60,461 nt of DNA from an uncultured Pseudomonadota bacterium (GTDB lineage Bacteria > Myxococcota_A > UBA796 > JAFGLY01), in assembly GCA_937912125.1 (NCBI GenBank), contig CALDOK010000481.1:1-60461 (forward strand), read 5' to 3'. Under the pieces are notes generated by a model. The model was not told where the DNA came from. It ran no database searches and saw only the letters and a list, made by a program, of their open reading frames with translations. Positions within the stretch are counted from its first letter, which is position 1, and every line of letters starts with the position of its first letter. Of this stretch, positions 32,411 through 35,394 are shown in pieces. Both the position numbers and the translations under genes were made by a program.

Positions 32411-33400
32411 CTACTCCCCCAGCTCCCGGTCGATCAGCGCCGCGAACTTTTCGGCGGGCTGGGCGCCGCGCAGGCCGTAGCCGTTGACGAAGAAGGCCGG
32501 GGTGCCGGTGACCCCCAGGGCGGTGCCCTGCTCCATGTCGGCGTCGACCTGGGCGGCGGTGGTGGGGTCGTCGATGTCGCGCAGGTAGCGGTTCATGTTC
32601 AGTCCCACCTGTTCAGCCACCTCGGCCATCAGCTCGGCGTTGCTGCGCAGCTCGCTGGCCCGGGCGTACAGGGCGGCCTTGTACTCCCAGAAGCGGCCCT
32701 GGCGGCGGGCGGCCTCCATGGCGATGGCGGCGGGCTTGGCCTGGTCATGGAAGGCCAGCGGGAAGTGCTTGTACACCAGCCGGAGCCGGTCACCGTAGCG
32801 CTGGGCCAGCTCGTCCATGGTGGCCGAGCCGCGCACGCAGTAGGGGCACTGGACCTCGAGGAACATCACGATGGTGATGGGGGCGTCGGCCGCGCCCAGG
32901 GCCGGTGAGTCGCCCGCGGGCACGGCGACCCAGGGGGCGTCGTACCGGATGGCCTCGGTGATGGCGGCCTGTTGGTGGCCTCGCCTGGCCATGTCGATCA
33001 CCCGCGCGGTGACCCGGGGCATGTTGGCGCACTGGGGCGCCTCGATCAGGCAGGTCGCGGCGCTCTTGCCTTGGTCCACGCAGGCCTTGCAGGGGGCCGG
33101 CGCGGCGTTGAGCACGGCCATGGCGACGCTCTGGGCCTGGAAGGGTAGCGCCAGCAGCGCGGGGATGCCCAGCTGCTGGACCTGATAGGTCGAGGGCTGG
33201 ACCGGGGGTGGGCCGGAGGGCCGAGCGTGACCGCAGCGGGCCTCGGCGGCATCGACCTCGGCCTCCATCTGTGCCATGGCCACCTGCTGGAGCATCACCA
33301 GCTGCCGGGTCTCGTCGAGCTGGTTGACGGCGTTGTTGTAGCGGGCCCGGGGCACGCAGGCAGTCAGCGACAGCAGGGCGGCGAGGGCGGTGGGGCGCAT
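32411..33400 (-). CDS. DsbA-like thioredoxin-fold lipoprotein
   Basis: A 329-residue predicted lipoprotein (lipobox LTACVP near residue 15), then a helical coiled-coil-like stretch (residues 24-55). The C-terminal half is a DsbA/BdbD-type thioredoxin fold: PITIVMFLEVQCPYCVRG gives the CPYC active site, followed by LVYKHFPLAFH and the cis-Pro region GTPAFFVNG. It would catalyse thiol-disulfide exchange outside the cytoplasm. A second Cys cluster (PCKACVDQGKSAATC) lies between the two parts. ATG 33400 follows GGAG. It is divergent from the selenoprotein redoxin gene across 137 bp, making a back-to-back pair of extracytoplasmic redox lipoproteins. Confidence 0.88.
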   Translation of the reverse strand: MRPTALAALLSLTACVPRARYNNAVNQLDETRQLVMLQQVAMAQMEAEVDAAEARCGHARPSGPPPVQPSTYQVQQLGIPALLALPFQAQSVAMAVLNAAPAPCKACVDQGKSAATCLIEAPQCANMPRVTARVIDMARRGHQQAAITEAIRYDAPWVAVPAGDSPALGAADAPITIVMFLEVQCPYCVRGSATMDELAQRYGDRLRLVYKHFPLAFHDQAKPAAIAMEAARRQGRFWEYKAALYARASELRSNAELMAEVAEQVGLNMNRYLRDIDDPTTAAQVDADMEQGTALGVTGTPAFFVNGYGLRGAQPAEKFAALIDRELGE

Positions 33401-33537
33401 GGGCTTCTCCTGGCTTCCCCCACGGCTATCGCATCTGCGGCGTATCGCCCGCTACACGGGTCGAGCTTCGCCTGTCACGGGGGGAGTCGTCGTTCGTCTC
33501 GGGTCTACTGAGTCAACGCTGCAACCCGGAGAACCCC

Positions 33538-35394
33538 TTGCGATCTTCCCTGATCATCCTGTCGTTGCTCGCCCCGGGCTGCCCCGTCGACCCAGTCACC
33601 GACGACAGCGCCCCCGAAGCCGACACGGACAGCGACACGGACAGCGACACGGACAGCGACACTGATACCGACACTGATACCGAGTGGATCGTCCTGGCCG
33701 AGACCTGCGATCCCCCCGCCGAGCTCCCCGCCTCCCCCTTCCTGCAGCTGGACGAGCTGGTGCTGAGCGGCAGCACCGAGATCCCCCAGGTCTACTTCAT
33801 GGAGCTGGTGGACCTCGAGATCGACGCCGTGCGCGGCGTGGCCTGGGGTGTGGGCCAGGGGGGCATCGTGTCCTTCGACGTGTCCGACCCTGGCAGCCTC
33901 TCCATGCTCGGCAACTACGGCCGGCATGGCAACCGCTACTACCGCGTCGAGCTGGGTCCGGACGGCGTCGTCTACACCACCCACCGGGATCAGGGGCTCT
34001 ACGCCCTGGACGGCGCGGATCCCACCGCCATCCAGGGCTTGTCCTTCCACAGCCAGCGTGACCTGGCCGGCATGGCCCGGGACGGGGATCGCCTCTATGC
34101 CGTGGGACACGACGGCAGCCTGACCACCTTCGATCTGGGCGATCCGCAGCAGCCCGCCGAGCTGGCTCGCACCGAGGGCCTGGGCAACGCCTGGGACCTG
34201 CTCCTGGCCGGCGATCTGGCCTATGTCGCCGACAACAGCCTGGGCATCGGCGTGGTGGACATCAGCGACCGCGACGCCCCTGTGGTGATCGGCTCGGTGG
34301 ACCCCGGGCGGGGCATGCTGGACCTGGCCATGGACGCGGCGGGGACCACCCTGTACGCCGCAGGCGGCGGTGCGGGCGTGCTGGTCTTCTCCCTGGAAGA
34401 CCCGGCGACCCCCGTGCTCATCGACACCATCGAGCTCGAGGGCTCGGTGCTGGCGGTGGCCTCGGCCGGGGATCGCCTGTGGGCCGTGGACCAGCTGAAC
34501 CTGGCGGGCTTCGATCTCTCCGACCCCCGCGCCCCCCGCTTGCTGGGCACGGTGGAGACCGACCAGTGGGCCATGCACGTCGCCGCGGCGGAGGACCGGG
34601 CCTATGTGGCCGACTGGGGTCAGCTCTCCACCTGGCAGGCCGACGCCGCGGTGTCCTCGCCCGATCTGCTGGTGAGTACAGGCACGGTTGTGCTGGACCA
34701 GGACGGCGAGACGGTGGTGCTCGGCCTGACGAACCTGGGCGCCGGCACGCTGGATCTGGTCGGCGCCAGCGCAGGCTCCGAAGCGCTCCAGCTGAGCGTG
34801 GACAGCGCCAGCCTGGCGCCTGGCGAGCAGGGGCAGCTGCGCATCGAGTTCGCCGGGGGGGAGGACCTGAGCGCCGAGCTCTGCATCGTCAGCACCGATC
34901 CCGACGAGCCAGTGCAGCAGGTGAAGATCTACAGCGGCGAGGGCAGCGGCGGCACCAGCATCGGAAGCCCCGCGCCGGACTTCGTGCTCACGGGCATCGA
35001 CGGTGAGAGCTACCAGCTGTCCCAGCAGCTGGGCTACCCGGTGGTGCTCGTCTACTTCGCTACCTGGTGACCTCAGTGCGCGTCCGAGGTCTCGGACATC
35101 GAGCACAGCCTGTGGCAGGCCTGGCAGGATCGCGGCGTGCGGGTCTGGGGCATCGCCTCGGCCGACGACGAGGGCACCGTGCGCACCTACGCCGAACAGC
35201 TCGGGCTGAGCTTCCCCATCCTGATGGACAGCGACGGCAGCGTGGCGCGTCAGTACCAGCAGCACTCCCCCTTCCCCTCGGCGGCCTATCCCCAGGACTG
35301 GATCGTCGATGATCAGGGGGTGATCGTCTACGTGAACAACGCCTTCGATCTGGACGCCATGGAGGCGGCCCTCGAGCGGGCCTTGGACGACTAA
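33538..35394 (+). CDS. Selenocysteine-containing lipoprotein: beta-propeller plus redoxin domain (in-frame TGA = Sec)
   Basis: One reading frame of 618 codons interrupted only by TGA at 35068-35070. The TTG start follows GGAG by six bases and begins a lipoprotein signal (lipobox LAPGC). Next come an Asp/Ser/Thr linker made by 12-bp repeats, an LVIVD-like beta-propeller (about residues 60-370), a choice-of-anchor/ASH-like beta domain (to about 470), and an AhpC/TSA-type redoxin domain from PAPDFVLTGIDG. The TGA falls at residue 511 in FATW-U-PQC, exactly where redoxins and TlpA proteins have the first Cys of CxxC. The frame stays open and domain-like for 107 codons afterwards (GIASADD, FPILMDSDG, QDWIVDDQG). 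A SECIS-like hairpin follows. The product is therefore an extracytoplasmic UxxC thiol oxidoreductase. A simple nonsense mutation is much less likely. Confidence 0.9.
33622..33681 (+). repeat. 12-bp tandem repeat coding the Asp-rich linker
   Basis: Five abutting 12-bp units: three identical (starting 33622, 33634, 33646) followed by two of a second type (33658, 33670) differing at a few positions. They encode the DTDS/DTDT linker just behind the lipobox of the selenoprotein. Such repeats readily expand or contract in frame. Confidence 0.85.
35076..35106 (+). promoter_or_regulatory. Bacterial SECIS-like element for Sec insertion
   Basis: Eleven bases after the TGA begins a perfect 7-bp stem (GTCCGAG 35082-35088, CTCGGAC 35091-35097) capped by GT. 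The tip reads AGGTCT, the same apical sequence as the SelB-binding loop of the E. coli fdhF SECIS, and lies 16 bases from the TGA (17 in fdhF). A lower 4-bp helix (GTGC/GCAC) extends it with an internal loop. Confidence 0.82.

Follow-up and report, generated by a model that had tools for sequence, protein, structure and literature searches.

An in-frame UGA, a SECIS hairpin and a ResA-like redoxin domain in a probable selenoprotein gene for a predicted envelope lipoprotein

The gene located at 33538-35394 (+) of the window, the whole stretch of 60,461 nucleotides analysed here, is very probably an authentic selenoprotein gene. Its product is predicted to be an exported lipoprotein acting as a thiol-disulfide reductase of the cell envelope, with selenocysteine (Sec) as the attacking residue. 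UGA511 lies in a ResA-like active site, a SECIS element follows at a fixed distance, and genes for Sec synthesis and insertion are present in the genome. Function and cellular location are suggested by features of the protein sequence.

Layout of the gene and its product

The reading frame starts with TTG, ends with TAA at 35392-35394 and is interrupted by a single TGA at 35068-35070. Reading through this codon yields a protein of 618 residues, in which the TGA is codon 511 and specifies the first position of the motif U-P-Q-C, in the context FATW-U-PQC. From the TGA to the TAA, 107 codons stay open. A previous sequence-only reading of the window had proposed that the TGA replaces the first Cys of a redoxin CxxC motif and that the frame is domain-like beyond it; both statements agree with the sequence, with the residues found at this position in homologues and with the Pfam match to the redoxin domain. 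The following features were assigned:

33528-33531 (+): GGAG, likely ribosome-binding site, 6 nt upstream of the TTG start (sequence)
33538-35394 (+): predicted selenoprotein gene, 618 residues, Sec at 511; 17 homologues span nearly the whole length
33538-33582 (+): short signal sequence ending in residue 15, a Cys that is probably lipidated and occurs in all 18 aligned rows, a count including the window protein and relatives whose start codons were partly picked for such a Cys
33616-33684 (+): acidic Asp/Ser/Thr linker after the lipid anchor (sequence, alignment)
33706-33708 (+): codon of Cys57, a residue that never changes among the 18 rows aligned for the closest branch
33715-34650 (+): LVIVD-repeat beta-propeller region (PF08309, E 2.3e-13), limits approximate and set by eye; stretch matched by Pfam, 34183-34302
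34687-34941 (+): Ig-like domain of ASH/HYDIN/DUF1573 type, from a family profile match to 2qsv, positions 384-468
34882-34884 (+): codon of Cys449, likewise unchanged among the 18 rows aligned for the closest branch
34960-35331 (+): ResA-like redoxin domain (PF00578, E 2.9e-25); best structural matches are ResA
35068-35070 (+): UGA taken to be read as selenocysteine (Sec511); of 71 scored homologues, 59 have TGA here and 12 a codon for Cys
35077-35079 (+): putative resolving Cys514 of UxxC; Cys in 59 of 59 TGA copies
35082-35097 (+): upper stem and loop of a bacterial SECIS, GUCCGA-GGUC-UCGGAC, with the apical loop at 35088-35091; fits published bSECIS constraints
35086-35088 (+): codon of Glu517, overlapping stem and loop; Glu in 59 of 59 TGA copies

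Judged by eye, the protein begins like a lipoprotein, with a hydrophobic N-terminus followed by Cys. The residue at position -3 relative to Cys15 is Ala and not Leu, which is usual in lipoproteins. Many other genes of the same genome share this N-terminus; in L022, L031 and L036, for example, residues about 5-50 of the window protein are matched at 57-65% identity. The shared part looks like a lipoprotein start and linker common to the organism. Further downstream, Cys57 and Cys449 may be connected by a structural disulfide.

The sequence-only reading had described a fusion of lipoprotein, propeller, ASH-like domain and seleno-redoxin and had called it uncommon. In the window protein, the models for LVIVD (PF08309, 49.7 bits, cut-off 20.2) and AhpC-TSA/Redoxin exceed the Pfam cut-offs, and these two parts of the description stand. 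The ASH-like domain is weak in the window protein itself (choice_anch_D, E 0.048) and is supported by the family profile and by single relatives, which are each matched by models for HYDIN Ig, ASH, DUF1573 or choice-of-anchor D; the HYDIN Ig match in L073 reaches 26.4 bits, barely above the cut-off of 25.5. A structure prediction for the whole protein was set aside due to its pLDDT of 36.8. The word uncommon has to be qualified, since 30 of the 71 genomes from the class gave matches at E<=1e-20, as did 47 of the 377 genomes sampled across the phylum, own genome counted, the full fusion being confirmed for part of these 47 only.

The redoxin domain and its relation to known proteins

Structure prediction for the redoxin domain, with eight distant relatives included, reached a pLDDT of 90.6. 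The top 19 Foldseek matches of this model are all ResA chains, with TM values of 0.77-0.81 (query length). UxxC and the Glu three residues past the second Cys align with ResA, and Glu517 sits at what we take to be the position of ResA Glu80. In ResA, the Glu serves as acid/base. The curated NCBIfam model for ResA yielded 70 bits, below its cut-off of 170; the redoxin is like ResA, but not filed as ResA. Since fold, UxxC and Glu follow ResA, and the Thr typical of peroxiredoxins is missing, we infer an envelope thiol-disulfide reductase with Sec as the nucleophile and Cys514 as the resolving residue.

Such a protein could work as follows. SelB bound to the GGUC loop would deliver Sec-tRNA at UGA511, and the product, once exported and carrying a lipid on Cys15, would stay attached to the cell envelope through the flexible acidic linker. 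The selenolate of Sec511 would then attack disulfides, or oxidised sulfur, of envelope partners, and Cys514 would resolve the mixed selenosulfide, with Glu517 acting as acid/base in the manner of ResA. The most likely role of the propeller and the Ig-like domain is to dock the substrate or to keep the redoxin off the membrane.

It is unlikely, but deserves attention, that the protein is a real selenoprotein working mainly as a peroxiredoxin-like envelope peroxidase. Among Pfam models AhpC-TSA matches best, and 17 of 18 rows are matched at E<=0.001 by the PrxQ model NF053650, although the window protein itself obtains 34 bits against a cut-off of 260. Sec also suits peroxide chemistry. The peroxiredoxin motif TxxC/TxxU, however, is absent, with Ala at U-3 here and Thr there in only three of 71 family members. 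Moreover, Cys at U+3 and Glu at U+6 are arranged as in ResA, which also leads the structural matches. The assignment as a thiol-disulfide reductase is therefore preferred.

Comparisons with known proteins revealed similarities to several groups. ResA/TlpA-type proteins share the fold, the position of CxxC, the Glu three residues past the second Cys and export with the window protein, which differs by Sec in place of the attacking Cys and by large N-terminal domains. Pneumococcal Etrx2 (2yp6, 4hqz) is an exposed lipoprotein of similar fold (Foldseek E 9.4e-11), but belongs to a Gram-positive organism. Etrx2 is a single-domain protein in the Cys form. NF041054 (ResA-like WAxxUGC) and NF041057 (Rcas_1661 (seleno)lipoprotein) are likewise models for thioredoxin-fold (seleno)proteins, the second being named a lipoprotein. 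Compared to NF041054, the window protein has the motif UPQC and 25 bits (cut-off 300), while NF041057 does not appear among its matches at E<=1. All NCBIfam models stay below their cut-offs on the window protein.

UxxC seleno-redoxins and fusions of seleno-redoxins are already known (PMC13188914, Table 1; PMC2398784, section 9). Among the selenoprotein families in Table 1 of PMC13188914 are a Prx-like thiol:disulfide oxidoreductase (PF00578, UxxC) and a Redoxin family protein (PF08534, UxxC), with the same domain family and Sec as the first residue of the CxxC motif. As far as that listing goes, these families are defined by the redoxin domain, whereas the redoxin described here ends a lipoprotein-like chain of 618 residues that also contains an LVIVD propeller and an Ig-like domain. 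The fusions from marine metagenomes in section 9 of PMC2398784, Prx with a PP2C-type phosphatase, Prx-like 2 with Secretin_N and Prx-like 3 with Unknown_3, also join a Sec redoxin to another domain. None is described in that section with a propeller or as a lipoprotein, some of the partner domains being unnamed. A propeller-Ig-redoxin lipoprotein was not found in the portion of the 2026 selenoprotein inventory covered here, nor in the open-access literature among the matches listed. The list of selenoproteins would gain a multi-domain, probably envelope-bound member. A standard gene caller would stop at residue 510 and miss the active site, so that the family is probably hidden in annotation.

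Homologues, SECIS hairpin and Sec decoding

In 58 related genomes, 17 near-full-length homologues with 34-47% identity were detected, 15 with one internal TGA and two without; the homologous frame runs on past the in-frame UGA. For a wider comparison, a set of 71 members was collected with the Sec protein as query and with single-domain redoxins removed. Dropped before counting were the named redoxins L047-L054, the Cys genes L018, L019 and L078-L083 judged to be ordinary redoxins, L103 with a TGA, and all matches above E 1e-12, among them the TGA genes L025 and L027 and the Cys genes L021, L023 and L102. Weaker matches were partly left out, for example G022:C53 with one internal TGA, and L067-L069, L141 and L142 were unscored as pieces without residue 511. 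Within this set, the position of U is encoded by TGA in 59 members, TGC in ten and TGT in two, with no other codon. The sequence-only reading had suggested looking for U or C at residue 511, and nothing else occurs. The ratio of 59 to 12 is biased towards Sec, since the set was gathered with a Sec protein and single-domain redoxins were dropped. None of the 59 TGA members departs from Cys at U+3 or from Glu at U+6; among the 12 Cys members, the second Cys is kept in ten and the Glu in six. An open frame of at least 300 codons precedes the position in 64 of the 71. The LVIVD model, applied to 31 members, matches 15 of 18 in the close branch and four of 13 in the other branch, and the propeller is therefore less sure in the second.

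A hairpin with a perfect 7-bp stem and an AGGUCU tip had been proposed to follow 11 bases after the TGA. The distance proved to be right, but the hairpin GUCCGA-GGUC-UCGGAC has a stem of 6 bp, 35082-35087 pairing with 35092-35097, and a GGUC loop. A 7-bp stem and an AGGUCU tip are incompatible, because seven pairs leave a two-base loop and a loop of AGGUCU leaves five pairs. The bSECIS model, in the part of PMC13188914 that sets out its constraints, has an apical loop of 3-9 nt, an upper stem of 4-16 bp, a G within the first two bases of the loop, a distance of 16-37 nt separating the UGA from the loop, and an MFE <= -7.5 kcal/mol. By these values, the 4-nt loop and 6-bp stem, the GGUC sequence of the loop, the 17 nt from UGA to loop, which are equal in both stem types of the family, and the fold energy of -13.9 kcal/mol are all in agreement, though the z-score of that energy is not significant (-0.79; 43 nt from TGA). 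For other spans, z-scores of -1.44 (40 nt after TGA) and +0.41 (63 nt) were calculated. Energy alone is no proof of the hairpin; being unremarkable for the composition, it leaves the case for a SECIS element to comparison. The placement of the hairpin says more than its energy: when both strands of the window are counted, there are 1,079 TGA triplets, and two of them precede a complete hairpin in either register of the family, the one in the gene included. An Rfam search over the gene region gave three weak matches, with no SECIS among them.

Comparison of the homologues revealed two stem registers with a constant position of the loop. Type A has 6 bp (25 members), and type B has 7 bp with a shift of one base (34 members), at least six of the seven pairs being formed in 33 of 34 placed members. 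An in-register hairpin with at least five pairs is present in 58 of 59 TGA copies and in one of 12 Cys copies (Fisher 5.5e-11, rows not independent); L128, with four of seven pairs, is the sole TGA copy without a stem by this rule. The first base of the loop is G in all 59 TGA rows. Paired cells amount to 99.3% in type A and 95.0% in type B, and changes on both sides of a pair were observed for two of six and four of seven pairs, respectively. The covariation scores of 0.105 for type A (slid controls <=0.033) and 0.249 for type B (slid controls <=0.053) are above all 500 shuffles. The count of double changes, a cruder measure, sets the hairpin less clearly apart: a slid control of type B shows three compared to the observed four, and eight of 500 shuffles reach the two observed for type A. 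The proposed check for a SECIS element thus yielded a hairpin which fits the published model and is conserved with covariation.

The stem is also constrained at the level of codons. Where copies have the same residue, their codons show a mean pairwise identity of 0.86 in the stem versus 0.51 in other conserved columns for 16 type-A genes, and 1.0 versus 0.55 for 12 type-B genes. Copies of these 12 genes sharing the residue use AGT, GTT and CCA in the stem without exception; elsewhere, each of these makes up 3-4% of the codons for its residue. In the wider type-B set, stem codons vary (CCG in L130, L131, L133, L139 and L100).

Sec decoding genes were required elsewhere in the genome according to the sequence-only reading, and they were found, on contigs other than that of the window. 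The host genome, G000, is a draft of 9.27 Mb in 527 contigs, 98.9% complete with an estimated contamination of 5.2%. It harbors one tRNA-Sec above the Rfam cut-off (60.6 bits versus 47), also called by ARAGORN as tRNA-SeC with anticodon TCA, SelB as a frame of 733 residues (264.3 bits, cut-off 242.25) plus a second, C-terminal piece, SelA (488.3 bits, above cut-off) and two SelD (361.3 and 335.9 bits). In 14 control genomes, the same models were above cut-off for tRNA-Sec in five, SelB in two, SelA in one and SelD in two. Within the order, 49 of 58 genomes have SelA above the cut-off, and the same holds for 21 of the 24 genomes with matches from the wider searches. It was not found in G023, G034 and G063, which have TGA copies (loci L075, L073 and L104), and among other genomes with TGA copies, G042 has a weak match (E 1.1e-4) and G052 a piece of 93 residues. 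These five genomes are drafts of 78-95% completeness, and SelA may have escaped detection in them; for the three without a match, missing contigs or a different arrangement may be the cause.

One of the two SelD genes of G000 (L014 2403 (-), contig C97) has a TGA in the active-site loop, CAG-U-AAKTSPEVL, and SelD is probably itself a selenoprotein in this genome. A scan of the host contigs with the redoxin domain only gave eight distant redoxins. Two redoxin genes of the genome have TGA at the first position of UxxC, L025 1683 (-) on contig C157 with ADW-U-PTC and L027 455 (+) on contig C107 with AFW-U-PGC, and the genome probably makes several seleno-redoxins. When G000 was scanned with a covariance model of the type-A hairpin, only the site in the window was recovered, the next candidate having an E of 0.37 (150 of 10,498 first-look candidates scored). 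L025 and L027 were not recovered by this model, and other selenoproteins of the genome would appear to use different hairpins.

The UGA could also serve to make two deliberate products, a lipid-anchored propeller-Ig form ending at UGA511 when selenium is scarce and the full redox form when it is ample. The UGA follows the propeller and Ig-like domains, and a short form could fold. We regard this arrangement as quite improbable, since Cys copies keep the full length, which indicates that the redoxin is what is kept. Separate N-terminal pieces lend it no support, since those in G002, G005, G016 and G024 (C214) reach the ends of their contigs, and the piece in G021 is followed by the rest of the gene in another frame. 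A nonsense mutation, a pseudogene or a sequencing error, for which the draft state of the assembly and the five draft genomes with TGA copies but without SelA, or with a piece or weak match, could be cited, is rejected as extremely improbable: 59 of 71 homologues, from many genera, have TGA at this position, codons are constrained past the TGA, and Sec genes are present. That one open frame spans a TGA might indicate a genome-wide sense codon, but this is still more improbable and is rejected for the family, as TGA is the normal stop codon of 32 of 71 genes and the TGA copies listed hold a single internal TGA.

Sec and Cys copies and genomic context

A quick tree with a midpoint root was calculated for 64 members, the seven with short upstream frames being left out. 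In this tree, Cys copies need five state changes. L060, a Cys copy with an intact hairpin, groups with the TGA copies L104 and L105 and looks like a recent change from Sec to Cys with the SECIS element still in place; the other 11 Cys copies are without the hairpin. As the tree is quick and midpoint-rooted, the direction of change is firm for L060 only. Loss of SelA does not explain the Cys copies outside the order (G144, G183, G222, G303, G338, G367 and G369), because SelA is present in those genomes.

These data leave it a serious, tentatively held possibility that lipid anchor, LVIVD propeller, Ig-like domain and UxxC redoxin define a family of envelope selenoproteins that extends through the phylum and has no name so far, in which Sec would be original and Cys copies would have arisen later several times, in genomes still having SelA. 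This view is given slightly less than even odds, because the propeller model matches only four of 13 members scanned in the second branch and the tree is not firmly rooted. If it is true, selenium chemistry at the cell surface would be a long-kept trait of these bacteria. L060 beside L104 and L105 offers a natural pair for asking what selenium buys, and the two stem registers, which share a single position of the loop, could be used to test what SelB measures.

Conserved neighbours were sought in ten enlarged loci, including that of the window, by applying a home-made gene caller. No neighbour occurs in more than three of the ten, and the context therefore names no substrate. L148 and L151, from one genus, share flanking genes, one gene cluster recurs in L148, L150 and L151 and another in L145 and L150, none being located beside the gene in all loci. 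In the window, the divergent neighbour at 32411-33400 (-) specifies a probable lipoprotein with a DsbA-like domain and the motif CPYC. It is of the Cys form and yields 82.7 of 190 bits with the model for the Rcas_1661 (seleno)lipoprotein, below the cut-off. As a partner it was rejected, since it recurs in none of the loci.

Family genes may also lie next to each other. Two type-B copies are adjacent in L092 (G036:C161), and L089 (G024:C915) comprises three copies on one contig of 7.5 kb, one of them cut by the contig end. The Cys copies L118 and L119 (G144 and G183) have CPMA instead of CPVC; the resolving Cys is lost, and these two proteins are possibly changed in function.
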